Assembly: GCA_029933125.1 (NCBI GenBank)
Contig: JAOZOU010000010.1
Location: 1 to 64,000 of the forward strand
Source: a bacterium
GTDB lineage: Bacteria > Arandabacterota > Arandabacteria > Arandabacterales > Arandabacteraceae
DNA length: 64,000 nucleotides
Direction of reading: 5' to 3'
Shown: positions 10,301-23,877 of the stretch, piece after piece
Layout: each line of letters begins with the position of its first letter
Numbering within the stretch: position 1 is the first letter of the stretch
Made by a program: the position numbers and the translations under genes
The notes under the pieces: model-generated
The model's database searches: none
Seen by the model: only the letters and a program-made list of their open reading frames with translations
Told to the model about the DNA's origin: nothing

Positions 10301-11754
10301 GTTGCATCGAAGAAGTTGGTCTCATCGATCGGTGAAGTCGAATAGCGGACATCATAATAGCTTGCTGTTCCGGTATAGCCATCGTCACCTGTCGCCGTCC
10401 AGGAAAGATCCATTGCATTTGAAGTCGCATTTGAAGCAGCAAGATCCGTAACGGCTGCAGGTGGGATGCTATCGGGCTCGGCAATGCAATTGAAGGCATT
10501 CAGTCTGCCTTCGGTTACGCACATTCCGACAAGATCAGGAACCGGATCGACTGAATTAAGGATCAGTGCCTTGACCTGGTCGACCGTCATGCCGGGGAAC
10601 CTACCCCAGATGAGGGCAGCCACACCTGAGACATGCGGGGTTGCCATTGACGTCCCGCTCAGGGAACCATAGGAAGCGCCAGGGAATGTGCTCACAATGG
10701 AGACACCAGGCGCACCGAGGTCGACTGTTGTCGGTCCCCAGTTACTGAAGCTCGCCAGCTCATCGTTGTGATCGGTTGCAGCGACGGAGACAACGTTCGG
10801 AACATCGTAACACGATGGATAGTGGGGCGAGACATCTGTATTGGCACTGCTGTTGCCAGCTGCACAGACAAAGAGCACACCGGCATCATAGGCCTGCTGA
10901 ATCGCATCACGCAAAGCCTCTGAATAGCCACCTCCACCCCAGCTGTTGCTCATCACTTTGATGCCGGGAATGGTTAGGGCATATTGGATCGACTGGATAG
11001 CACCGGAGGTATAGCCCGAACCTGCTGCACTCAGGAATTTCACCGGCATCATCTTGACAGTCCAGTTGACGCCAACCACACCAACACCATTGTTGCCAAC
11101 CGCACCTATTGTGCCAGCAACGTGAGTTCCGTGTCCGTTATCATCCATTGGATCGTTGTCGTTGTTGTAGAAGTCCCAGCCCCTGACGTCATCGACAAAA
11201 CCATTGCCATCGTCATCGATGCCGTTGTCAGGAATCTCGCCTGGATTGACCCACATGTTTGCAGCCAGATCAGGATGGGTGTAGTCAGAGCCGGTATCGA
11301 TTATGACAACAATTACATCGGATGATCCTGTGAAAACATCCCAGGCACGGACAGCATCGATGTCAGCTCCAGGGGTTCCACCTGTTTGACCAGTATTGTG
11401 CAAGCCGTAGAGCTGATCGAACATTGGATCATTCGGGATCTCAAGTGCCCTGAGCCGATAGTCGGGCTCGATGTACTCGATCTTCTCGTGCATCTGATAC
11501 TTCTGGACCGCATCCGGAACGTAGTAGTTGGTGACTTTCCAGACCTCGGCTCCGATGAGCTCAAGATTCTTCTCCGTTGTTGCGCCGAGGTCGTTCATGA
11601 TTGCAGTGCGCTCGCTGGGTGTGACGTCATCGCGGAACTTGACGATCACACGTCTTATAGCAAATTGCTCGCTAGGTTGAAATGCGAGTACTATGCTAGC
11701 GACGAGAACTACAGCAATCATTAATGTGGCTGTGAATGCTATACGTCTACGCAT
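4324..11754 (-). CDS. Secreted multi-module subtilisin-like (S8) protease with C-terminal sorting domain
   Basis: A 2476-residue protease. The start is set at 11754, where AGGAGG (11765-11770) precedes MRRRIAFTATLMIAVVL, a clear signal peptide; a longer frame to 11820 has no such site. A propeptide-like region (~25-110) is followed by the catalytic domain: Asp in DTGSDYTHPD (~152), His in NGHGTHVAG (~208) and Ser in GTSMATPHVSG (~365). All three triad residues are present. A fibronectin-III-like domain (~455-555) leads into repeated modules of ~430 residues, each pairing a beta-rich choice-of-anchor-like part (WDDL, FEVILYPNG, SATIGIQN) with an ASPM-SPD-2-Hydin-like part. The end is a FlgD-like sorting domain (VASGVYYYRINAGEWSETK). 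It should degrade protein outside the cell or on its surface. It has its own promoter and is not obviously in an operon. Confidence 0.93.
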   Translation of the reverse strand: MRRRIAFTATLMIAVVLVASIVLAFQPSEQFAIRRVIVKFRDDVTPSERTAIMNDLGATTEKNLELIGAEVWKVTNYYVPDAVQKYQMHEKIEYIEPDYRLRALEIPNDPMFDQLYGLHNTGQTGGTPGADIDAVRAWDVFTGSSDVIVVIIDTGSDYTHPDLAANMWVNPGEIPDNGIDDDGNGFVDDVRGWDFYNNDNDPMDDNGHGTHVAGTIGAVGNNGVGVVGVNWTVKMMPVKFLSAAGSGYTSGAIQSIQYALTIPGIKVMSNSWGGGGYSEALRDAIQQAYDAGVLFVCAAGNSSANTDVSPHYPSCYDVPNVVSVAATDHNDELASFSNWGPTTVDLGAPGVSIVSTFPGASYGSLSGTSMATPHVSGVAALIWGRFPGMTVDQVKALILNSVDPVPDLVGMCVTEGRLNAFNCIAEPDSIPPAAVTDLAASNATSNAMDLSWTATGDDGYTGTASYYDVRYSTSPIDETNFFDATEAVGEPDPGPSGTFETMTVAGLDFNTTYYFALKVLDEYGNYSPISNLVTGTTLGIPDIAVDPTSMTEELISGGASSQTLTVSNIGEGTLDFEVPQPTLILGSSVMGEYVEIGKGEEDTRTGGPVTEGQGGPDATGYRWIDSDELGGPVFDWVDITGVGTVISMSGDDQNTGPYPIGFDFEFYGNTFSEFRVCTNGFISFTSTSSQYSNQPLPNTGAPENLIAPFWDDLNFSGVNRCYYYNDGTRLIVEWVDVPHYGSGGPYTFEVILYPNGDILYQYLSMGEPTNSATIGTQNFTKDDGLQIAFNADYVHDSLAVKISKLPQWVTVTPTSGRVWGGGSMDLSVDFDATGLLGGYYDANIIIASNDPDEPTVVVPVELHVIGAPDIAVDPTSLDFGEIFIGATEERTFIVSNPGTDNLDITDITSDNPVFDANPKSFTLAPRAAQIVTATFSPTDPGPTSGTFTIYSNDPDEPTVTVDVAGTGLIPPEFSVTPDSLFADLMTGETDAQTITISNSGGSDFIFTASVEILTSSEVIQGDTTSYPKSEEELDPRTSGPQTEGSGGPDMFGYTWIDSDEPGGPAFNWVDITGVGTPVPGLDGDDENVGPIPIGFNFPFYGNTFDQLYVCTNGWLSFTSTRTSLSNYQLPNTSAPENLLAVWWDDLHFRYVERAYYYYDGTRFIIEFVDVERYSSYQPGVFTFEVILYPNGTIIYQYLSMEGYVTSATIGIQNDTRDDGLTVVYNAEYVHDNLAIKFSAAPEWLTVSPTSGTVPPGGSMDLTALFNAADMFGGDYDAVVHIDGNDPIVPRWDVPAHMHVTGAPDIAAEPDSLDFGTVFIGVSTLRQFTIFNEGTDVLTVTDIVPASPEYSVDVTSFTLEPMQQQLVTVSFSPTEVGDRSSTLTIQSDDPDEPTVVIPMTGYGLIAPDIAVTPESLADSLFVGEVSSHTVRVENTGGSDLNFDIGVSLGAEVVVDHTGDIPKGEEGPPGVPQTEGSGGPDNFGYRWVDSDEPGGPIFDWVDITSIGTLIPLDGDDDSYGPVDIGFNFPFYGNMFSSFYICTNGFISFTCDDDYYGNRELPSDYYRVCENMIAGWWDDLKIDAGDYRTYIYNDGTRCIIEFYEVRRLSSYDPGTFTFEIILYPSGKIVCQYLSMVGQIESATLGIQNATKDDGLTVVYNAPYMHDSLAVEIAFMPDWLSVNPTSGTIPAGSYLDLNVLFNATELFGGDYNGAINIISNDPDEGLVQVPAFLHVTGAPDIDVEPLALDFGPLYISLSETLQVTVANIGTDLLELTSLTLDNDQFSTDLTPFNLNPRETKVLDVVFAPTVAGPTSGTLTLFTNDEDEPEVYVTLTGEGVIPPECEIDPDTLHVAAMQGMVKTKTLRIMNTGGSDLIWSAGARQSATAVEQYDYLELGKEEEDPRPGILGSGGPDQFGYTWIDSDEPGGPVYDWVDISTVGTPIFGAYSDDRNYGPFPIGFTFPFYGNEFTEFRVCSNGWVSFTSTRTTYSNQPLPNSGYSVPENLLAVFWDDMVVDPDDGNEVYYYNDGTRLIIQYEVRRIAAFTPPFYSFEIILYPDGRIIYQYRTLGATLNSCTIGIQNATKDDGLTVVFNADYVHENLAILFSAAPAWLSVAPESGVIPAGGYQDLTVTCDATGLEEDLYEGLISITSNDLTDPVVECPVYLNVGYEDAEYVDFSPNTLNLDSNGRWVDALLGIPAGYDPNMVLGETMLVACGDSMVTPPERFEILGPDTAGIYSAHAKFDRAAVEAILPEGDSVEVWIAAEVDGMTYIAGRETIRVIRPRVNHPNGGEVFYEYDQMIVTWETPEGWDPDSYVVLFSPDGGETWQELASGVTGQSVIVDVPMVTTEQGLIRVFAMDGDEAVGYDTSDEFFTIAAPSGAGIGEEKPKVFALRQNAPNPFAGTTMIRFDLPKDCKVRLDVFDVRGRLIKTLVDGSLPADRYAIGWDGRDASGERVASGVYYYRINAGEWSETKTMVYVR
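5275..10140 (-). repeat. Three and a half ~1.29-kb coding repeats inside the subtilisin gene
   Basis: Module starts lie near 10140, 8840, 7540 and 6240, a period of about 1.29 kb. Each contains a GSGGPD..GY.WIDSDE segment, FYGN.F, VCTNG, YYYNDGTR, FEVILYPNG and a following DFG.....NDPDEPTV segment. The last unit lacks the Hydin-like half. Copies are clearly related but well diverged at protein level, so the expansion is not recent. Confidence 0.85.
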
Positions 11755-11975
11755 ACGAAATCCACCTCCTGAAAAGTTAAGGGGTAAAAGGGTCCGCAAC
11801 TCCATGTGGAGATTAATCATCTCCTCCCGTCACTTGGTCTCACGAGAGACCTTTATATAAAAAAACCGGCAAGGTCAGACAGAGGCCTGCGCAGAGACAT
11901 GAGAAAAATTGCGATAGTCGTACTGCGTATCCTGCCCGGACTCACCAGTCTTGCTCCCCCGCTAGATGCATTGTC
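11755..11975 (-). other. 5' leader of the subtilisin gene
   Basis: About 215 nt of untranslated leader between the promoter and the ATG. It contains a 6-bp hairpin GGTCTC-TCGT-GAGACC (around 11839-11854) preceded on the transcript by a TTTTTTTATATAAA tract. It could affect mRNA stability or control; no known riboswitch class is recognised. Confidence 0.4.
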
Positions 11976-12173: not shown

Positions 12174-12400
12174 CACCAACTCCTGTATCAGTCTCGGGTG
12201 AGCCGATTGGATATCCGCCTCAAACGGCCTGACACTTCGCCTATTGATATTCGTCCGGATCACCGTAGATTACGATGAAGACAAGCCACTTGATCAACTC
12301 ATTGATGAGGTAGCCAAACATATAGCCTCACCTCCTTCTCAAGCCAGCTCTGCCTGAGCAACCTCAGGCTCAATACCCACGCTTAGCTTCTAGCACATAT
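12174..12400. repeat. Long interspersed repeat, copy 1
   Basis: 227 bp matching 23652-23877 with 13 differences, one of them a 1-nt gap. A central block of about 123 nt (12241-12363) is identical in both copies; the differences crowd into the flanks. No transposase, terminal inverted repeats or target-site duplication is visible, so this is not an obvious insertion sequence. The invariant block holds a micro-ORF and its ribosome binding site. Confidence 0.9.
12241..12321 (-). CDS. 26-residue hydrophobic micro-protein, copy 1
   Basis: The ORF runs from ATG (12321) to TAG and encodes MFGYLINELIKWLVFIVIYG followed by DPDEYQ: one likely membrane helix and an acidic tail. Its ribosome binding site is AAGGAGGTGA, 6 nt before the ATG, an almost complete match to the anti-Shine-Dalgarno sequence. 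ORF and site are identical in the second repeat copy although the flanks have diverged. I do not recognise the family; a small membrane regulator or type-I-toxin-like peptide would fit the size and composition. The opposite strand is also open, so coding on this strand rests on the start signal and the conservation. Confidence 0.6.
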   Translation of the reverse strand: MFGYLINELIKWLVFIVIYGDPDEYQ

Positions 12401-12497: not shown

Positions 12498-13742
12498 TCA
12501 TCTTTCCACTATTAGCTTTCGAGAGATTGATGTCACCTCAGTATTGAGTCTTACGAAATACATCCCTGGTGCCACCCTGTTTCCGCTGGATGCCCTTAGA
12601 GACCAGATGAGGGTATGCCAGCCAGGCTCGTAGGTCTCCTCAGAGATTGTCGTGACACATCTACCTGCTACATCGTATATCTTCACCGAGACAGCCTGCC
12701 TGTGTGGCAGAGCAAACCTGATAGCCGCTGTCCCTATTGCAGGGTTGGGACCGATAGATAGCGCAGGGACCTCAGGCACTTTCTTCTTCTCAACACCGGA
12801 GGTGCAGGTACCTGGTATAGACACAGGCCAGCCCAGATAGAAGAGGGTCCTGAGGTAGCTTCTCATTCCAGGATATTGCTGCCAGCAGGCACGTTTAGTG
12901 AGCCAGAAGCAATCAAGCAAGTCATGTGCCTCTCCACTGAAGAGCCATGAGGTGAATTCTCGGGCAAACAGCCTGTGCCAACTACTCCAGTTGCCTCTGC
13001 CAGTTGATATCCAGGCAACAGCTGCTGGCTTCATGGGATCATTACAGAGAAACATCTCCGCCAGTATAGGATCATAAACAGGGTTGTCCCTGTCGAAATC
13101 TGCCATGTCACAGCCAGGACCAAAGAAGACAAAGGGGCGCGGACCAGCCTCTGTGAGCCAGTCCATGTTCCAGACAGGGAAATCGACCTTTTGAATGTAG
13201 TCACCGCCGATGCGTGATCTGTTGGATATGGCGCCAGTGTTTACAACGATATCAACACCCTCATTGAGCGAGTCAGCCATAGCCAATTCACGCTCCAGGC
13301 GCAGTGGCTCATCACTTTCCTTCATAAAGCGTATCTGATAGCCGTTTGCACTAAACTCTGCCATGAGATCCTGCATCAACTCAGGCAAGCCTGCCGGACT
13401 TATGCCCTGCCACTCCACATCACCGAGTGTGAAGACTGCTCTATGGGTAGGCTCAGAGGCTACCTTGTTGAGGTAGTTCTCCACAGCAAGGGCTATCTTT
13501 GTGGCACTCGTCACAGGTAGGCGTGCAAGTTGCATATCTGCAAGCCCGTCCTGGTCGAAGTCGGCTGCTTCATCCTCTGTAGGACACCAGGTTGGGTCAG
13601 GATCGAAAAAGCATGCACCTGTCGGGTCGGTGAAATAGCCCAGATCCACCTGGTTCTTCTCCGGCTCTCCACCTTCGTTCGCATCACCAACTATGAGCAC
13701 TCTCGGATAAGACTCACCCAGCGAGTCTGCCACTTCCTTCAC
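12498..13742 (-). CDS. C25 (gingipain-like) protease, C-terminal part with sorting domain
   Basis: This frame is in phase with the ORF at 13767-15332 and separated from it only by a TGA (13767-13769). The first possible start after the stop is a GTG at 13742 without a good ribosome binding site, so it is probably the second part of one 944-codon gene. It shows the alpha/beta core of peptidase family C25 (VLIVGDANEGG, LARLPVTSA, ADFDQDGLAD, FFGPGCDMADFD) and ends in a FlgD-like sorting domain (PNPAIGTAAIRFAL to RKLIVER). Translated alone it would have no signal peptide. It is last in the leftward operon from the sigma-54 promoter at 16993. Confidence 0.75.
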   Translation of the reverse strand: MKEVADSLGESYPRVLIVGDANEGGEPEKNQVDLGYFTDPTGACFFDPDPTWCPTEDEAADFDQDGLADMQLARLPVTSATKIALAVENYLNKVASEPTHRAVFTLGDVEWQGISPAGLPELMQDLMAEFSANGYQIRFMKESDEPLRLERELAMADSLNEGVDIVVNTGAISNRSRIGGDYIQKVDFPVWNMDWLTEAGPRPFVFFGPGCDMADFDRDNPVYDPILAEMFLCNDPMKPAAVAWISTGRGNWSSWHRLFAREFTSWLFSGEAHDLLDCFWLTKRACWQQYPGMRSYLRTLFYLGWPVSIPGTCTSGVEKKKVPEVPALSIGPNPAIGTAAIRFALPHRQAVSVKIYDVAGRCVTTISEETYEPGWHTLIWSLRASSGNRVAPGMYFVRLNTEVTSISRKLIVER

Positions 13743-13769
13743 GCCGTGAAGGATCTCCCACAGGTCTCA
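13735..13769 (-). other. In-frame TGA followed by a SECIS-like hairpin
   Basis: TGA at 13767-13769 sits in the middle of the C25 frame (CAT TGA GAC). Fourteen nt later begins a perfect 8-bp stem, TCCTTCAC-GGC-GTGAAGGA (13753-13735). Its loop starts with G, 22 nt after the TGA. As I recall the published bacterial SECIS consensus, loop distance and a leading G both fit. A CGA-to-TGA nonsense mutation is the simpler explanation. Confidence 0.35.
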
Positions 13770-15332
13770 ATGGTAACTTGAGGTAGCATATATGGTGTCA
13801 ACCTCAAGCCCTTGTGACTCAAGATAACCGACTGCAGGCATACATGCAGCAATGAGACTATCAGGTCCGTAGAATATCCAGTCAGGCACATGTGTTGATC
13901 TTGTCAACCGTCGAGACTGCCTACATTGAGCAGGTTGTCTCGGCTTGAGTCTCAAGTTTTGGTAATAGCCCGGCAAGATCTTCTTCGCCACTTTGGCAAT
14001 CGGTGGCTCCTCCATGAGCACCTCAATGGGCATGGCTGGCAACCTTGCACCAGTAGCCTCTATCTCAACAACACGGTAGAGGCTATAGCCACCAGGTACG
14101 GTGATCTCGTAGAGGCTCGGCACGACAGCCTCACCTTTCTTGAGTTGAGCCAACTTGTGCCAGGTACCTCCTTCGAAACCCTGAACCTCGTAGCCCCACG
14201 TGCCCACCTCAGCCTCAACATGCCAGCCTACCTTAACATCAGAACCATCCCTGTATGCCCACATAGAGCCATAGCGGGCTGCTATGTCGGAGTCATAGCG
14301 GATGCCGTAGTCATCGCCATTGGGACCTACGCCGTCTGTGCCAGGAGGATTCCGGTTGCCATCAAGCGGGATTCCACCTTGGCTTATGGCACTGTAGGCA
14401 TCAACGCTGAGGTAACCAGGACCCGGACCAACGGCCTTTATGTGGAAGTTGATTATGTCGTAGTCACCATCGGTGCCCCAGTTGATGTCTTCAAGGGAGA
14501 AGACCGTGTCGTCAGCCTTGAGGATCTGCTCTGGGTTGATGTTTGTATCCATCCCAGTATCAAACCTTATCCAGCCATCGATACCCGTGCTACCAACAAT
14601 TGTGTCCTTAGGAGGATAGAACTCATCAACAGTCGGGGATAGCACCGTGTTGCCATTGCCCCAATGTGAAAGTAACAACCCTCCCAATGCACCATCCACA
14701 TACCTGCTCGCCTTCCCCTCATAGCCATTCAGCCGACTCCAGAAAAACTCCGCATCACCTCTCATCTGACCAAACGTCGGACTACCACTGTAGCCTATGA
14801 CCTCCCTCGCTCCATCCCACGCCGCCCAGTAGTCATGACTATGACAAGTTGCATTGTAGACTATCGACTCATTAGACTCAAAACACCTCGATATCAGCAA
14901 ACTCATAGCACCTATGTGATACATACGCCCCTGAGGCGTCGCTGCATCCGACTTGTATATCTCGAAGCTATCGTAGCCATGTGCCAAATAATAGTCATAC
15001 GCCGAATCTCGCTGCGCCTCCTCCGCAAATACCTCAACCGCAGGTCCAGCACTGCTACCATGGGAGGCTATACCGAAGATGCCCGTGCTGTAAGTGAGAT
15101 GCCAGACAAAGTCATCAAGGGTGACATGGTCATACTCGGTCTCTATCAGAGGAACAATCCAGTAGCCCTGTTTCTTGCAAACGCTCTGAAGACTATCAAG
15201 GACAGTCATATCCATTCCCAGAGCATAAGGCTCTATCCTGCAGCCATCGGTTGAGATAGGAGTCTCATAGATTGCGTAGGCATACGGGGTGGCTATGAAG
15301 AGGGCCAACAAGTAGGTGATACCTGTTCTCAT
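13767..15332 (-). CDS. Secreted C25-like cysteine protease, N-terminal part
   Basis: 521 codons before the TGA. A signal peptide (MRTGITYLLALFIATPYAYA) is followed by a caspase/gingipain-like region with a candidate catalytic His in GIFGIASHGSS and Cys in YNATCHSHDYW. A beta-rich insert (~250-350) follows, part of which is duplicated at 16199-16410. The frame then enters a second C25-type fold (WIFYGPDSLIAA) and is cut by TGA at codon 522; downstream sequence continues the fold in the same frame. The start overlaps the upstream gene by 4 nt (ATGA), which suggests translational coupling. It is either an inactivated gene, a read-through or selenocysteine gene, or two split proteins; I favour a recent nonsense change. 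Confidence 0.78.
   Translation of the reverse strand: MRTGITYLLALFIATPYAYAIYETPISTDGCRIEPYALGMDMTVLDSLQSVCKKQGYWIVPLIETEYDHVTLDDFVWHLTYSTGIFGIASHGSSAGPAVEVFAEEAQRDSAYDYYLAHGYDSFEIYKSDAATPQGRMYHIGAMSLLISRCFESNESIVYNATCHSHDYWAAWDGAREVIGYSGSPTFGQMRGDAEFFWSRLNGYEGKASRYVDGALGGLLLSHWGNGNTVLSPTVDEFYPPKDTIVGSTGIDGWIRFDTGMDTNINPEQILKADDTVFSLEDINWGTDGDYDIINFHIKAVGPGPGYLSVDAYSAISQGGIPLDGNRNPPGTDGVGPNGDDYGIRYDSDIAARYGSMWAYRDGSDVKVGWHVEAEVGTWGYEVQGFEGGTWHKLAQLKKGEAVVPSLYEITVPGGYSLYRVVEIEATGARLPAMPIEVLMEEPPIAKVAKKILPGYYQNLRLKPRQPAQCRQSRRLTRSTHVPDWIFYGPDSLIAACMPAVGYLESQGLEVDTIYATSSYH
14369..14580 (-). repeat. Source copy of a 212-bp intragenic duplication
   Basis: This part of the C25 gene aligns without gaps to 16199-16410, with 11 mismatches in 212 positions, at an offset of exactly 1830 bp. 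Confidence 0.95.
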
Positions 15333-16081
15333 TGCTTCTCACCTCTTTTCTTCAGAGCACGAGGGTTGATGAGTTCCTCGAGTCTTCCAGGTGGAGCATG
15401 CAAGGCTCTTTCATCCTCCTCTGATGCCCGCTCTTGTTCTTTCACTTTCTCTATCAGGGCTTCCACCTTGGCAAGATCCCGTGCGGGGACAGACAGGCAG
15501 AACTTCGAGCCCCGGATCTCTATCCCACCCATATTAAGAAGGGTTGTCATCAGTTTTGCCTCTCCTCTTAGTCTCTCCACAAAGGGTTGTGGGGGTGGAA
15601 TGACCGAGTGCGGAATCAGTACCTCCACCGGAGGATGCCTGTCGTAACTCTTCCAAACCAGTAACCTCCCCTCGATAACCCGAGCACTATCTATCCTCTC
15701 GAAAGTCTCATACAACTCTGCAGCCCTAGAAAGAATCGAATCGTAACTTACCTCTTGCTCCAACAGCGGAACAATAGCTCTGTAAACACTATCGTGCATG
15801 GCATCAGCCAGACTGTCTTGCTTGCTCTTTGGCTTGGGCTGAGCCTTACCCATGAAGTAGTAATCATTGACCCAGAGAGTGTCATCGTAGATCGTGAAGA
15901 CAAAGGGCGGCTCAAGACGATTCCCAAACAGATACAATATCCCCCTTGTCGCCACAGCCACTGTCTCCGGCTCTGCCACCGAAGTACTCTCAGGCTGAGT
16001 ATGTGTCTCATTGCCTTCAGCAAGCCCCTGGCTAGAACCAACCAGGGTTGCTATTAGTGCTACGAACAATAACGCTCTCAT
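15329..16081 (-). CDS. Secreted protein of unknown function
   Basis: A 250-residue protein with a signal peptide (MRALLFVALIATLVGSSQGLA), a low-complexity Thr/Ser/Glu stretch, and a charged helical C-terminus (~205-250) with likely coiled-coil character. The start is firm: TAAGGAGGTGA lies 6 nt before the ATG. It starts 2 nt after the stop of the upstream fragment ORF and overlaps the C25 gene by 4 nt, so it belongs to that operon and could be a chaperone, inhibitor or partner of the protease. No family is recognised. Confidence 0.8.
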   Translation of the reverse strand: MRALLFVALIATLVGSSQGLAEGNETHTQPESTSVAEPETVAVATRGILYLFGNRLEPPFVFTIYDDTLWVNDYYFMGKAQPKPKSKQDSLADAMHDSVYRAIVPLLEQEVSYDSILSRAAELYETFERIDSARVIEGRLLVWKSYDRHPPVEVLIPHSVIPPPQPFVERLRGEAKLMTTLLNMGGIEIRGSKFCLSVPARDLAKVEALIEKVKEQERASEEDERALHAPPGRLEELINPRALKKRGEKQ

Positions 16082-16082
16082 A

Positions 16083-16544
16083 CTAAATCACCTCCTTAGG
16101 TAATATACGACAGGGGGTGTCTATCGATATGATACTCATCTTGATTCCTTTGGTACTACTGTTCAGAAGGGGATAGTTATCCAGAGGGGCAAGTATGAGG
16201 ATTCCACCCTGGCTTATGGCACTGTAGGCATCAACGCTGAGGTAGCCAGGACCCGGACCAATAGCGCTTATGTGGAAGTTGATTATGTCGTAGTCACCAT
16301 CGGTGCCCCAGTTGATGTCTTTAAGGGAGAAGACCGTGTTGTCAGCCTTGAGGATCTGCTCTGAGTTGATGTTTGTATCCATCCGAGTATCAAATCTTAT
16401 CCAGCCATCGACACGAGCACTGTCAATGACGGTATATTCAGTGGGATAGAGAGCCTCAAGTGTTAGGCTGATATCACACCAGGGCATGCTGCCGTCTGTT
16501 ACGTCATACTGTGTTCTATCTTCCGAGCACATCCGTCTCTCCAT
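16083..16544 (-). pseudogene. ORF built around a copied fragment of the C25 gene
   Basis: About 153 codons. Residues ~45-118 repeat the middle of the downstream C25 protein (DGWIRFDT.MDTNIN, SVDAYSAISQGGI), and the DNA match is 95%. The N-terminal ~45 residues resemble the C25 protein only loosely (YPTEYTVIDSARVDGWIRFD against YPPKDTIVGSTGIDGWIRFD) and the C-terminus is unrelated. There is no signal peptide and only a weak AAAGG site before ATG 16544. It may be a relic left by duplication or gene conversion. It stays open and in the operon, so some product is possible. Confidence 0.5.
16199..16410 (-). repeat. Second copy of the 212-bp duplication
   Basis: Partner of 14369-14580. The match stops abruptly on both sides inside coding sequence, as expected for a partial-gene duplication. 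Confidence 0.95.
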
Positions 16545-16574
16545 CACGCCTTTTGTGAACCCGGGGAGGCCTCT

Positions 16575-16928
16575 TTAGCCTTCATTCTTATCAGGACAAT
16601 TCTCTGGACAACACCTTCGGATACAGCCACCTGCAAAGCAGATCTTCAGTTCTCCCCAGGTGCAGTCTCGAGTCACTCTTTTGGTATCTTGGTGGGTGCA
16701 TATTCGGACCGCATCCTGATAGGGCACACCCAAGACAAGGAAGTCTTGGACAGTTGGGACATAGTCATCAGGCCAGATATCAGCTCTTACCACAACACCT
16801 GGTGCCAACTGGATCATCTCGACTTGTCCATATTGGATATGCATATCGTAGAGACTTGCGATGGGCTGAGCAAGCAGTGAAAAAGGCAAAAGCAATGTGA
16901 CAACCAGTAGGATAGACGCCCTATGCAT
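16575..16928 (-). CDS. Small secreted cysteine-rich peptide (7 Cys)
   Basis: A 117-residue product, the first gene after the sigma-54 promoter. The signal peptide is MHRASILLVVTLLLPFSLLA. The last ~45 residues carry seven cysteines (RICTHQ, RDCTWG, KICFAGGC, RRCCPENC), a pattern of disulfide-stabilised secreted peptides. GGGGGTGA precedes the ATG. I recognise no family. Position and composition resemble the other small secreted genes at 19812-20216 and 17869-18024. It may be a signal, an effector or a substrate of the downstream protease; this is inference. Confidence 0.75.
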   Translation of the reverse strand: MHRASILLVVTLLLPFSLLAQPIASLYDMHIQYGQVEMIQLAPGVVVRADIWPDDYVPTVQDFLVLGVPYQDAVRICTHQDTKRVTRDCTWGELKICFAGGCIRRCCPENCPDKNEG

Positions 16929-16992
16929 CTAGCTCACCCCCTTGAAGCCAGACGCGGCATGCCCCGGGTTCACACGGCACCAGTAGAGAGGA

Positions 16993-17007
16993 GCATGAAG
17001 TGTGCCA
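16993..17007 (-). promoter_or_regulatory. Sigma-54 promoter (copy B operon)
   Basis: On the minus strand TGGCAC (-24) and ATGC (-12) keep the diagnostic GG-N10-GC spacing: TGGCAC-ACTTC-ATGC. Transcription would start near 16981, about 53 nt before the 16928 start codon. Three palindromes lie ~140 bp upstream and a sigma-54 activator gene is in the same region. Confidence 0.75.
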
Positions 17008-17141
17008 GTTGGAACAGAAACGGCGTAAGAATTATGCGAACGGGGCTAACCTTAAAGAATCTAAGGGGTTAGGGCGTCAACTGCTCCGGCTGTGTGGCTG
17101 TCTAACTTGAGCATGCGTTGCCTGAGAGCCTTAAGGGTCTT

Positions 17142-17192
17142 ACAGGTGTTTAAACAGTGTTTAAACAGTGTTTAAACATATGTAACACCTGT
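17142..17192. promoter_or_regulatory. Upstream activator sites: three TGTTTAAACA palindromes
   Basis: Perfect 10-bp palindromes at 17147-17156, 17158-17167 and 17169-17178, spaced exactly 11 bp so that they lie on nearly the same helix face. An outer inverted repeat ACAGGTGTT/AACACCTGT (17142-17150, 17184-17192) encloses them. Position and symmetry fit binding by the dimeric Fis-type HTH of a sigma-54 activator. The other promoter has the related TGTCTAGACA. Confidence 0.7.
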
Positions 17193-17516
17193 CTCACGAG
17201 CAAACCTCAGGCAAGCCGAGGGCGGGTGCCCTAGGATAGCACACGAGGGAATTGTCAGGGTCTGGCGATTGGGGAGCACAAAAGGCAACTATCACAAGCC
17301 CAGCAGCCATGCTGCCACTGCGATAATACCCTGGAGGTGCCTCCTGCGTTTCCCAATCGGAAAGCCTAAGGCGAAGCCACCACCGATCAGAACTACAGGA
17401 AGCCAAGCTTCGATTAGACTACCGCCTTCAAAAGTTGTTCAATCATGATAGCTCAACCCATAGAGCCAAGAAAGTGAGTGATTGTGGACGAAAACCCACC
17501 ATGGTGCTCACAGGAT
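17193..17516. other. Intergenic with a possible broken small membrane ORF
   Basis: On the minus strand an ATG at 17446 starts MIEQLLKAVV and stops at a TAA. One base out of phase, the sequence continues LIEAWLPVVLIGGGFALGF and GIIAVAAWLLGL to a TGA at 17292. Joined by a 1-nt correction this would be a ~51-residue two-helix protein. There is no good ribosome binding site. Nothing else is seen. Confidence 0.25.
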
Positions 17517-17800
17517 CTAATTGATGCCGAGAGATTTCATTCGATACCACAGTGTGCTGCGTGATATGCCGAGGAGTCTAGCCGCTTCGGTTCGATTGCC
17601 ACAAGCCTTTCTCAAAGCGGACTCAATCATGTCGCGGTTGATCTCGGAGAGGCTTGGCTTGTTTGCCAGGGTTATCTCGAGGTGTTGCTCGACCTCGCAC
17701 CGGCGGATCACACGTGACCTGCCAATAGCCACGAGGGCTTCGATCAGGTTCTTGAGTTCTCTCACATTGCCAGGCCAAGTGACTTCTTGCGGAATCCTGT
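17517..17800 (-). pseudogene. Remnant of a sigma-54 activator (C-terminal end only)
   Basis: Encodes the end of an AAA+ activator domain ([23 protein letters not shown]) and a Fis-type HTH (NRTEAARLLGISRSTLWYRM). It is very close to the intact activator at 20679-22922 ([20 protein letters not shown]), including at DNA level over the EALVAIGRS part. The frame opens after a TAA and lacks Walker A, GAFTGA and Walker B. A nearby frame (~17815-17870) reads HEVETIVTSERNDR, resembling the start of the intact AAA+ domain, so an internal deletion is likely. It lies immediately upstream of the TGTTTAAACA sites, as the intact gene lies upstream of TGTCTAGACA. Confidence 0.78.
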
Positions 17801-17868
17801 TGTGGTGACTGCAGAGAAAGTGGCCCTCTTACCTGTCATTGCGTTCTGAGGTGACAATAGTCTCAACT

Positions 17869-18024
17869 TCATGTATTGGCACTATTTGGACAAGTGCAGG
17901 TCTTTCGCTCCTCGTCAAATACGCCAGGTAGACTGTACCGCCTGTCCGCCCTCGCTGCATCTACTATCAACATCAAGAGGAGAAAGGTAAACACGATCGC
18001 CGACACTGACGTGAATCGCTTCAT
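17869..18024 (-). CDS. Small secreted Cys peptide, 51 residues
   Basis: Read from ATG 18024 with GGGGGATTAAT before it. The signal peptide MKRFTSVSAIVFTFLLLM continues to ADAARA-like small residues, then DRRYSLPGVFDEERKTCTCP. The mature part resembles the 20216 peptide (DRPDRITLPGEL..DKKICICP). Its start region, AAGGGGGATTAATATG, matches that of the 23262 peptide gene. It stands before the activator remnant just as 23262 stands before the intact activator. It may be truncated, because another frame takes over near its end. Confidence 0.6.
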   Translation of the reverse strand: MKRFTSVSAIVFTFLLLMLIVDAARADRRYSLPGVFDEERKTCTCPNSANT

Positions 18025-18168
18025 ATTAATCCCCCTTCACCTGCAGAACGCAGCGCTATGCTTCACTACATTGGATACATCTCGGTTGGCAGTGAGACTG
18101 CTCTCAAACTCAGACTCCACTGCTACCTGTCTTTACCCCACTGAGTACGGAGACACGAGCCCCAAGCG
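18025..18168. other. Short intergenic region
   Basis: No sigma-54 or clear sigma-70 promoter is seen in the minus orientation. A GG-N10-GC match exists on the plus strand (TTGGCAGTGAGACTGC) but points away from any gene, so I do not call it. Confidence 0.4.
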
Positions 18169-19761
18169 TCATCGTGAGGAGTCCATGTTGTCAACTTCTC
18201 TTAAGAACTCATCGATGGGCTTTCCGCCCTCTCCATAGAGATCGTATGTAGAATATGTTGCCAGTACGCTACCATCCCTGTCGAACACTACAAGCCCTGG
18301 GTAAGGATATGAAGGGGCTATCTCCATCACCAGACCGGGCTTCAAGTTTGGCACCACTATTGCTTCGAGAGTCAAGCCGCCTAGCAGGAATTCCAGCTCC
18401 TCTTTGAATGGATGGCTTATGACTACGTATAGTTGATAGTCGTCCCTCTGTGCACAGAATTCCCTAACGCCCTCGTACATTGCTGTGAATGCACAATCGT
18501 AAAAAGGCCTTACAAAGATTACGATACTACGAGGTGCAGATGTCAGGAATTCTCCAAAGGCGTGCCTCCTCCCACTCAAGTCGACGATACTAAACCGGGA
18601 TGTTTCCTCTAACCCTCCCCATGCAGTATCAACCAGAGCCTCAGTGATCACGTTTCTAATGTGACTTGCAGGAAGTGATTCTGCCGGTGCCTCTTCGCTT
18701 TCTACCCTTGCTTCCTTTTGCGAAATCGACGCAGTGTACTTGCCGACAACCACAAGCGTATCACTAAGATGCTCATAGAGGTAAATATAGTTTGAATCGC
18801 TGTAGACAAACGGCTTCTCGCCCAGCTCACAATAGCCTAAGTACCTCTTCTCAGTGATTGAGTAGAAGTCCAAGTAATAGGGTGGCAGCAAGCGCCTTGG
18901 AACCACGAATATATCTCCCTGATACATGCTGGGGCAACCGGTATAGCTCCATGTTGCCTCCCACTGCCCATCTTCCTCTTCACCTGTGTGTTGTTCAGAA
19001 GGGGGAGCAGCTTGAACTTCCCTGAGTGAAATGTAGTGTGGAGGAACCTTGTCGTACACATAAAGGAGCTCACCGGACAGTGAATATTCAAAAATCCTGT
19101 GGTCGAACATCTTGGTGCATAGCACGTGCCCATCGGGTGTAACTGTAAACAGCGGTCCAGGGAACCATCCACCAGCATTCTTGGATGACAATAGTTCTAG
19201 TTCGTCCTCCCCGGTGCGAAAGAAGCGCGTTACTGCCCTACCGGTGTTGTAGTCGTACACGAAAATACCCTCAGCTATATTCATACATGTGCCACTTGCT
19301 ATTAGGTAGGTATCGTACTTCCGCGAAAGCGTAGGCGAGAACCTGAACTCCGGTACGAACAAGGTCTTGAGCAGATTCCCCGCTCCATCATAGACATTGA
19401 CTCTCCTTCTTACATCTGTTGCAACAATCTCACCTTTGTCAGATACTGTCACTGAGTAACAGACGTAGGGAAATCTCCCAGGCTCCAGTCCTTTTCCCCC
19501 TATCTTCCTTATCAGGTTGCTGTCCTTGTCAAACAAGTAGATCCAATCATGACTCTCAACCGCAAAATAACCAGAGCCAGTCACGGCGAAACGGGGAACA
19601 GTGGAGGCATAAACCCCGGAAGGAATCCCGACGCCCTGGCGGAGGTAAAATTCTGCCTTTTTCACCAAAGGGATGGATTTGCCTTTGCTCTGTTCGCAGG
19701 TAGATGGAGATGCCAGCACTAAGGTCAAAGCAGCAATACACACCGACAAAAGTCTTAGCAT
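18169..19761 (-). CDS. Secreted six-bladed beta-propeller protein with thioredoxin-like C-terminus
   Basis: 530 residues from ATG 19761 (GGGAG 7 nt before; a GTG two codons earlier is less likely). The N-terminus MLRLLSVCIAALTLVLASPS is a signal peptide, possibly a lipoprotein signal with Cys in STCEQS. Residues ~35-350 have repeated strands of the NHL/6-bladed propeller type, with the hallmark IGGKGLEPGRFPYV. Residues ~375-525 look like an AhpC/TSA-type thioredoxin fold (FSIVDLSGRRHAFGEFL, IVIFVRPFYDC) with a single Cys in place of CxxC. In Bacteroidetes, propeller proteins of this kind often neighbour small secreted Cys peptides. Here the 134-aa peptide gene is 50 nt upstream, so the two share the sigma-54 promoter. 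Confidence 0.75.
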   Translation of the reverse strand: MLRLLSVCIAALTLVLASPSTCEQSKGKSIPLVKKAEFYLRQGVGIPSGVYASTVPRFAVTGSGYFAVESHDWIYLFDKDSNLIRKIGGKGLEPGRFPYVCYSVTVSDKGEIVATDVRRRVNVYDGAGNLLKTLFVPEFRFSPTLSRKYDTYLIASGTCMNIAEGIFVYDYNTGRAVTRFFRTGEDELELLSSKNAGGWFPGPLFTVTPDGHVLCTKMFDHRIFEYSLSGELLYVYDKVPPHYISLREVQAAPPSEQHTGEEEDGQWEATWSYTGCPSMYQGDIFVVPRRLLPPYYLDFYSITEKRYLGYCELGEKPFVYSDSNYIYLYEHLSDTLVVVGKYTASISQKEARVESEEAPAESLPASHIRNVITEALVDTAWGGLEETSRFSIVDLSGRRHAFGEFLTSAPRSIVIFVRPFYDCAFTAMYEGVREFCAQRDDYQLYVVISHPFKEELEFLLGGLTLEAIVVPNLKPGLVMEIAPSYPYPGLVVFDRDGSVLATYSTYDLYGEGGKPIDEFLREVDNMDSSR

Positions 19762-19811
19762 ACCCACACTCCCTGTTGTGGCAACGTTACCCTCCTATGC
19801 GTAAAACATTA

Positions 19812-20216
19812 CTATTGACCCATAACAAATTCTTCAAGCTCTCTCTTCGAAACTCTCACCAGCACATTGCCGCGGACAGTCACATCGAACACGGGCGGCT
19901 GTGTATTTTCTCTTATCCCAGCGCGGAAGTAGAGAAAATTCTCATCCTCTCCCTCGAAGGATTCCAAACTGATCAGCCGGCGGTAAGGCCTGCTGACCAC
20001 GATGCCCCCTTCACCAGGGAACGGCATGGGGGTGACAGGTGGCTCCAACTCTATAACACAAACACAAGTCTTGGCTTGGCGTGGGCATATGCAGATCTTC
20101 TTGTCGTTGGTCAATTCCCCCGGAAGGGTTATCCGATCCGGACGGTCACCAAACGCAAGATCAGCCCCCGCAAGCATCACCATGCAGAAAATCAGACTAA
20201 CAGCTAATGCTTTCAT
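19812..20216 (-). CDS. Small secreted Cys-containing protein, 134 residues
   Basis: First gene after the second sigma-54 promoter. The signal peptide is MKALAVSLIFCMVMLAGADLAFG. The mature part starts DRPDRITLPGEL and has a CICPRQAKTCVC cluster of four cysteines, then a Pro-rich turn and a beta-rich tail (ENFLYFRAGI, FDVTVRGNVLVRV). GGAGGTG lies ~9 nt before the ATG. It is related in its first mature third to the 51-residue peptide at 17869-18024, and its FLYFRAGI segment weakly resembles RIFVFRLGI in the 22909-23262 product. The function is unknown. Confidence 0.75.
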   Translation of the reverse strand: MKALAVSLIFCMVMLAGADLAFGDRPDRITLPGELTNDKKICICPRQAKTCVCVIELEPPVTPMPFPGEGGIVVSRPYRRLISLESFEGEDENFLYFRAGIRENTQPPVFDVTVRGNVLVRVSKRELEEFVMGQ

Positions 20217-20319
20217 TCTCTTTACACCTCCCCAGCGGCTTTTCTGTATCTGCCACGTGCTCTGCGCGGAGCTAGCTTTGCTGCTGCAGCCTCATGTGAC
20301 CAGGCAGAGAGAGTTGAAA

Positions 20320-20334
20320 GCATAGGGAGTGCCT
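20320..20334 (-). promoter_or_regulatory. Sigma-54 promoter (copy A operon)
   Basis: AGGCAC-TCCCT-ATGC on the minus strand keeps GG-N10-GC and shares GGCAC and ATGC with the promoter at 16993-17007. The predicted start is near 20308, about 92 nt before ATG 20216. The paired palindromes lie ~260 bp upstream. The rest of 20217-20678 holds no credible gene. Confidence 0.72.
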
Positions 20335-20591
20335 CTCCCTCGTATCGTCTCTCAACAGACACCGTTCTGAGTTCGAGCCACCCGGAGAGAATGCCTCGCC
20401 AGATGGCACCAAGCATTTCACTTCTGCCCGGACCTTCCCGGAATGCAAGACTCATGCCTGCTCCATCAGGGAATGGAGCTCGGGACATCACCCTATGACC
20501 ACTGGCAAACAAGCGATTAAGACAACATAGCCTGAAGCCAAGCACGGTGGTACCTTCAGAGGAGGAATATCCAGGGGAACGTAATGCGAGG

Positions 20592-20613
20592 TGTCTAGAC
20601 AGGTGTCTAGACA
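20592..20613. promoter_or_regulatory. Upstream activator sites: two TGTCTAGACA palindromes
   Basis: Perfect 10-bp palindromes at 20592-20601 and 20604-20613, 12 bp apart; the second extends to 12 bp (GTGTCTAGACAC). They lie just downstream of the intact activator gene and upstream of the sigma-54 promoter at 20320. They differ from the 17147 sites only at the inner position of each half-site (C/G for T/A). Confidence 0.7.
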
Positions 20614-20678
20614 CTTTGCTGCTCAAACGAACTCAACAAACCGGAGCACGGTACCGGCGAGGTAAGTAGATTGGCAGC

Positions 20679-22922
20679 CTAGTCCATGCCAAGAGATCTC
20701 ATGCGGTGCCAAAGAGTCCCGCGGGAGATACCCAATATCTTGGCAGCTTTGGTTCTGTTTCCTCGGGCTTGCTTCAAGGCAAGGCGGATGGCATCCTTTT
20801 CGGCTTGCTCTAGCAGACAACTACGCCTGCAAGTTCCCAGAAATTGGTCCAGGTCGGAGGGCTGGATCACCCGTGACCTGCCAATTGCCACGAGGGCTTC
20901 AATCACATTTTTGAGTTCTCTCACATTGCCAGGCCAACTGTAGGTGAGAAGCCCCTGGCGTGCCTCTTCACTCAAAGTCACCCTGACACCATAACTCGTG
21001 CAGTATTGATCAAGGTAGTAGTCAATGAGGAGTTCAATATCATAAGGACGCTCTCTTAGGGAGGGAATCCTCACAAGCACACCCTTTAGCCTATAATAAA
21101 GATCTTTTCTGAATTTGCCAGCCTCTACCTCATGCCACAGATCCCTTGTTGTTGCACTCAAGACCCTTACGTCTATCTTTCTTGGCTCATTGCTTCCAAC
21201 TCGCCTAACCGAGCCCTCCTCAAGCACTCTCAGGAGTTTTACCTGAAGTGCCTCACTGAGTTCTCCAACCTCATCCAGAAACAATGTGCCACCATTGGCA
21301 CTCTCAATGAGCCCAACCCGCTCTCTTACCGCACCAGTAAAGGCACCTCTGGCATGCCCAAAGAGTTCGCTCTCTGCAAGGGTTTCTGAGAGGCTGCCAC
21401 AGTCTATGACCACAAAGGGCTCCTCCCTGCGCCTGCTCATCCCGTGCATTGCTTGGGCAAGGAGTTCCTTGCCAACACCAGTCTCACCTTCAATCAAGAC
21501 TCTCACATCAGTTGGTCCCCACTGCTTGAGATCTCCCGCTATACGCTCATCTGCAGTGACAATGCCATACTGGAGGATGTCCTCGTAGCACTTGATACCG
21601 CTTGGGTGCCGGCTCTCCTCAAGGCTCGATCTTAAGCCACCAACCTTAGGAGGTGTGACAAGCCCAGCCAAGAGATTATCGATCTCCGCAATGGCGTCTC
21701 TCACACCAAGGTGGGAATAGATCCTCCTTGCAGTGATAAGATGCTCCAATGTCGTCCCATTGCTTGACTCAGGCTTGGCTTCAAGAAGAGCCTTTGCTAG
21801 CGTAAGTTCACTTGCCGCAAGTTCAGCAGAATGAACCGACAGATTCATCAACTTCTCAACTGAGTCTCTGATATGCTGTAATCCACATCCTGTGGTGCCC
21901 GTGGCGATCTCCACTTGACCAAGGATACGGAGGCAAATGGCAAGCTCGTATTCGTCTCCAATCCTTTGAGCAATACCGACAGCGAGGTTCACCAGGCGCT
22001 TTGCTGACTTTATTCTGTTGAGACAGAGCGCAGCACTCGCAGCCCGCCTGGCAATCTCGCACTCCAAATCTCCACCCTTTGCGAGCTGCCTAGCAAGCCT
22101 GAGTGCCTTCCCGTATATGGACAGTGCCCGTCGATACTCCTTCCTGGCAGACCACAGGTCACCTTCCAGCTCAAGTGCCAGAACCTGCTCTCTCCTCTGC
22201 TGGTTCTTTTGTGCGATCTCAGTTGCGTGAGTAATGAACTGCTCAGCCTGTCTATCATCATGGACTGTCAGACTAACGTTGGCGAGTTCCAATGCGTAGC
22301 TGCACTCATACAGAGGTAGCCCTAACTCTTTCGCAAGATGAAGTCCCTCGTTGCACAGGTCGTATGCCTTACCAAGGCTGCCTTTCTTTCTCAGCAAGAT
22401 TGCAAGATTGAGCAAACTTCTAACACGAGGTAGTGGATTGTCCATGCCAGCATACGCATCGAGTGCCTTCTTGAAATCTGTCTCAGCAAGATCCCAGAAA
22501 CCTACGTTCTTGTGCACAAGTCCAAGATTGTTCCAGGAATCACCTTCGAGCTTTCTATCGGCAAGTTCCCAGGTTGATAAATAGATGGCGGCTCCACAGT
22601 GTTTTTCTGCTAGTGCATAGTCGCCAGTCCGGAGGAATAAGGCAGCCAGCAGCAGGTGGCATCTTGCCAACCAGAAATTGCTCCGCAACGACTGAGAATC
22701 GTGCAACAGTCCCTGGGCCAAGTCCATAGCTTCGGTGTAGTGTCCTTCGCCAGCAGCAAGCCTAGCTCGCAGATATGTGAGCATCAAAACTGAATCACCG
22801 TCTGTCAAGCTTGCAATATCTGGTTGGATACGGTCGTATAGCTCTCGCGCTGCGCGAAAACTACCAGATTGCAGCAAGGACTCGAACTGTTCAAGTAGAC
22901 TGATCGTCTTATTTCCGGCCAT
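20679..22922 (-). CDS. Sigma-54-dependent transcriptional activator with TPR sensor
   Basis: 747 residues. Residues ~1-430 are helical TPR-like repeats ([39 protein letters not shown]) and replace the usual response-regulator receiver. The AAA+ domain is complete: Walker A GETGVGKE (~480), GAFTGA (~526, the sigma-54 contact loop), Walker [13 protein letters not shown] (~550) and WPGNVREL (~663). It ends in a Fis-type HTH (~722-747). It should use ATP to remodel sigma-54 RNA polymerase bound at the promoters at 20320 and perhaps 16993; the TPRs probably sense a peptide or protein partner. The start is set at 22922, where the ATG overlaps the end of the upstream small ORF by 14 nt; upstream in-frame GTG/ATG codons lack better sites. 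It is transcribed from the sigma-70 promoter at 23421. Confidence 0.92.
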
Positions 22923-23262
22923 GATGTTTAGAAGGCCCCCGTGAGTGACCATACAATCGTTCTGGATTGGGTTTCCTCGCACATGCAGCAGGGATGCCAA
23001 GCCTGAACACGAAAATTCGGCCACTAGATGGGATCAGCGAGAATCGTGCTCCAGGCGAACCCGAGGCAGCTGAACTTTCAGACCCCTCGGATGTAAGAAA
23101 CTCTTCAGAACCAGGTCTTCTGCTGTAAGCTGGCTGATCGGGATCTCCAAACCAGATAGATATTGCAACATCCCTTGCGGGAGGACGGATTGCAACCGAA
23201 TCAGACGCGACTACTGCGACTACAAGTCCCACCACAGCTATTGTAACCAGTAACCTTCTCAT
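22909..23262 (-). CDS. Small secreted protein coupled to the activator gene
   Basis: 117 residues from ATG 23262, with AAGGGGGGATTGAT before it; an ORF extension to 23289 has no site. The signal peptide is MRRLLVTIAVVGLVVAVVAS. The mature part is Ser/Gly/Pro-rich (SSAASGSPGARFSLIPSSGR) and ends in a basic tail with one Cys (ACARKPNP). Its end overlaps the activator start. The start context is nearly that of the 18024 peptide, which stands before the activator remnant. It could be the ligand or antagonist monitored by the TPR domain; that is a guess from position. No family is recognised. Confidence 0.65.
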   Translation of the reverse strand: MRRLLVTIAVVGLVVAVVASDSVAIRPPARDVAISIWFGDPDQPAYSRRPGSEEFLTSEGSESSAASGSPGARFSLIPSSGRIFVFRLGIPAACARKPNPERLYGHSRGPSKHHGRK

Positions 23263-23420
23263 ATCAATCCCCCCTTCTTGATGTACCACCAGTGGTGGGA
23301 CCTAAAAGAGAAAGGTCCCAACGACGCGCTCCAATAGGAGCTATCGTCAGGACCTCTTAAAGAGGTTAACCTATTTCTTTTAGGACTTTCCACAGCCCTT
23401 GCTCCCGCTCTTCACCTCCA
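23263..23420 (-). other. 5' leader of the activator operon with hairpins
   Basis: The transcript carries GGGACCT-(9 nt)-AGGTCCC (about 23299-23321) and the palindrome ACCTCTTAAAGAGGT (about 23352-23366). The two could fold the ~150-nt leader. No known riboswitch class is recognised. Confidence 0.45.
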
Positions 23421-23450
23421 TTTTTAGCACATACCTACGCATCGTGTCAA
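23421..23450 (-). promoter_or_regulatory. Sigma-70-type promoter of the peptide-activator operon
   Basis: TTGACA (23445-23450, perfect), 18 nt, TAAAAA (23421-23426), preceded by TATGTGC. The transcript would start near 23414. Confidence 0.65.
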
Positions 23451-23651: not shown

Positions 23652-23877
23652 CACCAACTCCTGTATCAGTCTCGGGTGAACCAATGGATATCCACCCCAA
23701 ACAGCCTGACACTTCACCTATTGATATTCGTCCGGATCACCGTAGATTACGATGAAGACAAGCCACTTGATCAACTCATTGATGAGGTAGCCAAACATAT
23801 AGCCTCACCTCCTTCTCAAGCCAGCTCTGCCTGAGCAACCCCGGGCTCAATACCCACACGCAGCTTCTAGTACATAT
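23652..23877. repeat. Long interspersed repeat, copy 2
   Basis: Second copy of the repeat at 12174-12400, in the same orientation and 11.5 kb away. The two copies bracket the sigma-54/protease region. Differences are mostly G/A and C/T transitions outside the invariant ~123-nt core. Outside the repeat, 23451-23651 and 23878-23951 hold no gene that I can see. Confidence 0.9.
23718..23798 (-). CDS. 26-residue hydrophobic micro-protein, copy 2
   Basis: Identical in sequence to the micro-ORF at 12241-12321, with the same AAGGAGGTGA site 6 nt before the ATG (23798) and the same TAG. The upstream flank differs (TTAACA-18 nt-TATATG is a possible promoter here), so the two copies may be expressed differently. 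The transcript runs towards the activator operon. Function unknown. Confidence 0.6.
   Translation of the reverse strand: MFGYLINELIKWLVFIVIYGDPDEYQ

Follow-up and report, generated by a model that had tools for sequence, protein, structure and literature searches.

The 64,000-nt window analysed here, from contig C23 (assembly of 3.23 Mb in 176 contigs, 96.7% complete), contains a recurring module twice, once intact and once decayed. In this module a small secreted peptide with an Asp-Pro-Asp core (the DPD peptide) is encoded directly before a sigma-54 activator carrying tetratricopeptide repeats (TPRs), an AAA+ domain and a Fis helix-turn-helix (HTH). The pairing of peptide and activator suggests a peptide-controlled sigma-54 regulatory system, possibly one that acts from cell to cell. 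The build of the module, its conservation, selection on the coding sequences, the placement of promoters and the TPR fold were computed from metagenome-assembled genomes (MAGs) of two lineages, namely the phylum of the window itself (8 genomes) and one further candidate phylum (7 genomes: G008 and G010-G015). The closest named relatives are likewise MAGs and include two under the label Candidatus Eisenbacteria. Scanning genome contigs with a single sequence recovered zero relatives; an alignment-based scan recovered the own-phylum MAGs and the additional lineage.

Peptide genes paired with TPR activators

An intact activator had been placed at this locus by an earlier note made from the window's letters, and Pfam searches bore this out. 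Its Sigma54_activat domain scored 214 bits and the GAFTGA loop of sigma-54 enhancer-binding proteins is present in the translation, while all NCBIfam equivalog models scored it under their cut-offs. Two paralogues were identified in the same genome, on contigs C168 (54%) and C57 (47%), and counterparts are present in five more genomes of the family. Elsewhere, a sigma-54 activator match at locus L029 (G000:C176:165360-166211) is broken by a single in-frame TGA.

The small secreted-peptide gene that the note had read upstream of the activator was confirmed as a 117-aa open reading frame (ORF) with a signal segment, and its stop codon overlaps the activator start, an arrangement that predicts translational coupling. 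The sigma-70-like promoter assigned before the two genes has parallels in the TTGAC-type boxes ahead of the peptide genes at L045, L046, L064, L065, L068 and L069. Within the phylum, a peptide ORF precedes all inspected full-length TPR-AAA-Fis activators with readable upstream sequence. For activators of the short type this is an ORF of ∼105-120 aa in the same direction, touching or overlapping the activator gene, in which GDPD comes after a hydrophobic N-terminus (WGDPDWPA, FGDPDQPA and LGDPDSPA). The partner of long-type activators reads NWGDPDIVEG and that of the C120 type DGDPDEYQ; a weaker form, GGDHDIP, was seen in G007, and in G006 the locus is cut by a contig end.

The second lineage showed the same pairing, with such a peptide ORF upstream of 24 of the 27 TPR-AAA activators whose 5′ end could be read (motifs GGGDPDNPVP, NGDPDDPFP, DTDPDDFP, VDPDGLEG and GDGDIPE). 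Of the remaining three, one is of a kinase-TPR type, one has no more than 226 bp of upstream sequence and one is unexplained. The first-lineage peptides had been noticed through the motif itself; since the second-lineage activators were found by a TPR-GAF profile alone, they provide a fair test of it. DPD occurs in 29 of 34 peptides, compared with a mean of 1.2 and a maximum of 7 in 2000 rounds of shuffling, and DPD or DGD in 33 of the 34. From their preferred starts the peptides are 70-120 aa long, and nearly all end between ∼80 bp before the activator start and an overlap with it. Every one has a strong hydrophobic N-terminal segment; the export signals are putative, being assigned from hydrophobicity alone. 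Between the window peptide and its C168 paralogue the ratio of nonsynonymous to synonymous change (dN/dS) was 0.33 (dN 0.34, dS 1.03), and ratios of ∼0.13-0.46 were obtained for all computable pairs, with third codon positions changing most. By these measures the peptide genes are real and under purifying selection.

Activators without TPRs served as a control. Among 11 such sigma-54/AAA genes of G000, the window's own genome, two follow a small hydrophobic ORF, which in one case is motif-less, and on this result the idea that ordinary two-component activators share the peptide was rejected. The exception is a PGDPEPD peptide preceding an AAA fragment that adjoins a kinase-type sigma-54 activator. 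At this locus (L090:8300-9354 and 9931, G000 C76), a 16.9-bit -24/-12 site lies past the truncated AAA fragment and before dnaK. TPR proteins without AAA in G008 likewise had no such peptide ORF, except one of 53 aa that is likely spurious. These data bear on the possibility that the peptide is no ligand at all and is a small envelope protein or translational leader that happens to share the operon, with the TPRs sensing another protein. Binding of the peptide is argued indirectly, TPR and GAF domains accept many partners, and the stop/start overlap would serve translational coupling; yet the peptide travels with activators over two phyla, three subfamilies and many paralogues, the control activators are without it, and what is conserved is DPD rather than length or overlap. 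We regard this explanation as unlikely.

Folded from its single sequence, the whole activator gave an unusable model (pLDDT 51). A model of the TPR region built from six aligned sequences reached pLDDT 83 and is an all-helical superhelix, for which Foldseek returned NprR (TMt 0.76), RapJ with its CSF peptide (0.69-0.70), a phage Rap with its pheromone (0.63) and peptide-bound LGN. A sequence profile of the region matched kinesin light chain, LGN and RapF (1.3e-5). These are peptide-binding TPRs, so the matches support peptide binding by the activator; because TPRs generally look alike, they fall short of proof. Invariant Asn, Lys and Arg residues of the TPRs (K138, R168, N172, R178, K179 and N215) could be contacts for the acidic DPD segment.

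Promoters and the possible route of the signal

The presence of rpoN had been set beforehand as one point on which sigma-54 control could fail; the gene was found as a 479-aa frame (PF04552, 212.8 bits). The two sets of tandem 10-bp palindromes reported in the earlier note proved exact and unique in the genome: the pattern TGTNTANACA-N1-2-TGTNTANACA occurs in the 3.23 Mb at the two window sites only, and the reversed-pattern control gave 0. When loci were tested singly, palindromes beat all 60 shuffles at both window sites and at L080 only. This palindrome type was also sought at paralogous loci and is absent there; each locus has an inverted repeat of its own, which taken alone is in most loci no better than shuffles.

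The GG-N10-GC promoters proposed near 20320 and 16993 both stood as matches to a -24/-12 matrix, with weights that only approximate the consensus. Counted over 26 activators from both phyla, the 1.2 kb downstream carry 16 matches on the same strand as the activator and 0 on the opposite one. At C168, for instance, the activator is followed after 352 bp by a 17.0-bit site, TGGCACATCGCTTGCT, which is preceded by inverted repeats based on TGTCAC/GTGACA. The order activator, palindrome, same-strand sigma-54 promoter and target, whose absence from relatives the earlier note had named as another refuting outcome, is conserved in relatives. The targets themselves vary: secreted peptides and a protease, as the note had it, are a local feature, and putative targets in relatives are a sigma-70-family factor, a lipoprotein and other small peptides. 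After the TGGCCCTnTTCTTGCT promoters at L064 (160-1, - strand) and L067 (650-340, - strand), the ORFs start with a similar signal-less stretch, TRT.FPQ.SAH.A..GL, and the one at L067 has a Cys-rich C-terminus reminiscent of a modified-peptide precursor.

Long-type activators (∼1013-1030 aa) have more TPRs, with a weak GAF match at L076. A sigma-70-family gene (regions 1.2, 2 and 4) is next downstream of them at L080, L082, L083, L085, L086 and L087, with a -24/-12 site ahead of it and, ∼115 bp upstream, a palindrome (GTGAAnnTnnTTCAC) that is invariant in 5 genomes. These loci read as a peptide - sigma-54 - sigma-70 cascade.

The proposal to which we lean, though only slightly, has the DPD peptide bind the TPR domain of its co-encoded activator as a ligand and thereby gate that activator. 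Peptide and activator would be produced together from the sigma-70 promoter, and the peptide would be exported by Sec and then trimmed; its acidic GDPDxx segment would return to contact the TPR groove, and this contact would release or block the AAA+ domain and so switch the sigma-54 target operon. The activator would act by binding the palindromes downstream of its own gene and firing the -24/-12 promoter of the next genes. Peptide-TPR binding, the sign of its effect, the mature form of the peptide and its route back to the cytoplasm are all steps that we infer. Sensing of a peptide through the TPRs had already been suggested in the earlier note, and the suggestion is strengthened by the pairing with DPD peptides across two phyla and by the fold match to NprR and Rap.

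Several observations weigh against gating by a returning peptide. The binding is deduced from sequences and models, TPR domains have many other binding partners, the signal peptides were called on hydrophobicity, and a core common to many receptors looks less like a pheromone than peptides each specific to their own receptor. Moreover, OppA/DppA-type binding proteins were found in four of the eight genomes (G000, G001, G002 and G007) and OppA-type proteins were not found in G003 (94% complete), G004, G005 or G006, which argues that classical import is not general and makes sensing of the precursor before export a serious rival. Under this rival the TPRs would bind unexported precursor, and overload of Sec or the envelope would let precursor accumulate in the cytoplasm and switch the activator, with no import or cell-cell signal involved. 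The lack of recognised OppA-type importers in half of the genomes fits such an export-status sensor, as do co-translation of overlapping or adjacent peptide and activator genes and the length of the mature parts (∼50-95 aa), and control of a sigma-70-family factor by long-type activators would suit a global stress circuit. Its difficulty is that the strongest conservation, DPD, lies past the signal segment and not within it, and that a 26-aa orphan peptide ending in GDPDEYQ makes better sense as a signal than as a gauge of export load. On balance we consider export sensing rather improbable, if less so than a peptide that is no ligand.

The orphan peptide is encoded twice in the window, once in each of the direct repeats (95%) that bound the whole region. 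Its C-terminal GDPDEYQ is the heptad found in the peptide partner of C120-type activators. A homologous 26-mer in the same genus (L139) differs by 7, 3 and 15 nt at codon positions 1, 2 and 3 and leaves GDPDEYQ unchanged, and the GDPDEY pattern was matched only by the two window 26-mers, the same-genus 26-mer, the C120-type peptides (3 genomes) and one large protein. The layout, a hydrophobic segment with a short C-terminus, is one that we take to be that of SHP-type propeptides. If the ligand proposal is extended, DPD pheromones acting on cytoplasmic TPR-sigma-54 activators could form a cross-phylum family in candidate phyla of Gram-negative type, with sigma-54 promoters (and the long-type sigma-70 factor) as outputs and the 26-aa GDPDEYQ genes as extra signals; this wider scheme is tentative and we think it doubtful.

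The decayed copy and neighbouring genes

Coordinates of the window features. Peptides and proteins termed secreted are predicted to be so.
Feature	Positions	Strand	Basis
26-aa ORF MFGYLINELIKWLVFIVIYGDPDEYQ, strong ribosome-binding site, inside right flanking direct repeat	23718..23798	-	ORF
sigma-70-like promoter TTGACA-N17-TATGTGCTAAAAAT before peptide-activator operon	23420..23450	-	assigned by eye
DPD peptide gene, 117 aa, hydrophobic signal segment then ...IWFGDPDQPAYS...	22909..23262	-	ORF, ortholog alignment (invariant GDPD)
TPR - AAA+ (sigma-54 activator) - Fis HTH protein, 747 aa	20679..22922	-	Pfam: TPR (TPR_12), Sigma54_activat, AAA lid, Fis HTH
tandem palindromes TGTCTAGACA x2, perfect, 12-bp period; presumed activator binding site	20592..20613	.	
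alternative -24/-12 candidate AGGCATGAGTCTTGCA	20459-20444	-	12.9 bits
-24/-12 promoter AGGCACTCCCTATGCT	20334-20319	-	11.5 bits; position and strand conserved across relatives
secreted Cys-containing peptide, 134 aa, first gene after promoter	19812..20216	-	ORF
secreted 532-aa protein, NHL/beta-propeller N-terminal half; single copy in genome	18169..19767	-	domain searches
secreted peptide, 51 aa, relative of 20216 peptide	17869..18024	-	alignment
activator remnant, AAA region end and complete Fis HTH; 82-aa ORF from GTG 17765	17517..17800	-	Pfam, alignment
tandem palindromes TGTTTAAACA x3, perfect, 11-bp period	17147..17178	.	pattern search, shuffles
-24/-12 promoter TGGCACACTTCATGCT	17007-16992	-	14.5 bits
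secreted Cys peptide, 117 aa (…CTWGELKICFAGGCIRRCCPENC…)	16575..16928	-	ORF
secreted protein, 250 aa; 248-aa counterpart in same place in G005	15329..16081	-	ORF
C25-like protein with secretion tail, through TGA 13767-13769	12498..15332	-	read-through, G005 comparison
identical second copy of 26-aa GDPDEYQ ORF, inside left flanking direct repeat	12241..12321	-	ORF

The earlier note had described the region as a tandemly duplicated module and as a self-contained secretion system that had since diverged, secreting Cys peptides and a protease. The tail of the activator, a palindrome with its promoter and a small Cys-peptide target do occur twice in the same order, and the secreted Cys peptides at 20216 and 16928 were both recovered. 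The second activator is indeed present as a remnant, although it amounts to the tail only: it corresponds to the last ∼86 codons of the intact protein (57-59% aa identity; best nucleotide stretch 90% over 81), with the Fis HTH intact, and is perhaps an isolated DNA-binding protein. The peptides at 23262 and 18024 were considered as duplicates of each other and rejected; because the 18024 peptide aligns instead with that at 20216 (20 of 47 aa, LPG..-K.C.CP), the first gene is not common to both modules. Nor are their large secreted proteins related. For the 532-aa protein a propeller/thioredoxin fold had been suggested; the NHL/beta-propeller part was found, whereas thioredoxin was unconfirmed in Pfam, NCBIfam and PDB sequence searches.

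Genome G005 shows what the decayed copy probably looked like. There an activator is followed by a 17.0-bit -24/-12 site, a 74-aa secreted peptide directly past it (…TTWGAIKTGQCG…) that is the positional counterpart of the 16928 peptide, and counterparts of the 250-aa and C25-like proteins, which is the order of the window from 16928 to 12498. On this gene order the second module probably once had an intact activator directly before the 16928-12498 operon. A secretion system gains something from this comparison, in that the protease half stands behind an intact activator in G005; it is already partly refuted by the differing targets of relatives and by the non-homologous first peptides and unrelated large proteins of the two modules, and no secretion machinery gene was recognised among the ORFs of the stretch. 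We consider it the least probable of the explanations weighed here.

The gene for the C25 protein does not start at 13742; comparison with G005 indicates instead one gene running through an in-frame TGA (codon 522). The G005 counterpart (L073:5558-8479, + strand), from another genus, has TGA at the same codon and 47% identity over the whole length, and the residues around the shared codon read YATS.Y-U-DLW..LHG.K..ADS. SelA and tRNA-Sec are present in both genomes, and in both genera a hairpin with GG in its loop lies 21 nt past the UGA, although its folding energy does not stand out from that of shuffles (z -0.7 and -0.3). The conserved UGA, coding sequence on both sides, SelA, tRNA-Sec and the hairpin make a selenoprotein probable. 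The domain of peptidase family C25 (gingipain-like) scores 58 bits over residues 490-820 of the read-through product, compared with 54.1 bits for the 3′ ORF alone; the G005 relative has no C25 match, and a PDB search with the read-through product returned none. Of the catalytic His-Cys dyad expected in such peptidases, the conserved Cys (C741) is present. The segment expected to read GHG, which we take to be the catalytic-His motif, reads NTGA and NMGT in the two genera, so that the protein appears to lack the family's catalytic His and may not be a protease.

Two further ORFs were noted. That at 16083-16547 looks like a gene fragment because 16199-16459 repeats 14369-14629 at 88% over 261 nt; it is probably a duplicated piece of a 521-aa ORF. 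Adjoining the region at 4324-11820 (- strand) is a subtilisin-like secreted protein of 2498 aa, which contains repeated domains and has a secretion tail at its C-terminus.

Relation to known systems

Cytoplasmic TPR receptors that sense peptides are known from Bacillota, their phages and plasmids, and no prior description of TPR-sigma-54 activators with secreted peptides was found in the open-licence literature. If the DPD peptide is indeed a ligand, a TPR receptor fused to a sigma-54 activator would carry this logic over to another type of bacterial envelope and of transcription machinery, in many paralogues per genome of two uncultured phyla. The proposal is a testable account of how sigma-54 regulation is driven in both lineages, and a DPD peptide adjoining a TPR-AAA-Fis gene can serve as a search key for genome surveys.

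With NtrC, NifA and NorR, the activator shares the GAFTGA-type AAA+ domain, the Fis HTH, upstream palindromes and a -24/-12 promoter; it differs from these enhancer-binding proteins in using a TPR array as sensor (with a GAF-like region in the long type) and in having a secreted peptide encoded immediately upstream. Regulation of PEP-CTERM/exosortase systems by PrsR (PEP_resp_reg; PMC1569441) also ties a sigma-54 activator to exported proteins with C-terminal sorting tails, but the PEP-CTERM response regulator model scored 284 bits against a cut-off of 502.6, and the activator described here has TPRs and a peptide partner.

The closest likeness is to the RRNPP systems (Rap-Phr, NprR-NprX, PlcR-PapR, Rgg-SHP and PrgX), which are recognised by a Sec-secreted propeptide of 10-100 aa and a TPR receptor of 250-500 aa encoded by adjacent genes, the receptor binding the mature peptide after its re-import (PMC10075063). 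The module likewise joins a small gene for a putative Sec-type propeptide to a TPR receptor gene, and its TPR model matches NprR and Rap structures. The window peptide has 117 aa and its relatives 70-120 aa, while the orphan 26-mer falls within the RRNPP range. In contrast, the receptors of the module are 745-1030 aa long (747 in the window), their output is an AAA+ sigma-54 activator with a Fis HTH rather than an Xre HTH or a phosphatase, their DPD core is common to very different receptors, and they occur in MAGs labelled Eisenbacteria and of another candidate lineage and not in Bacillota. By analogy, the module would work like an RRNPP system while standing outside that family in receptor size, domains and phylum.

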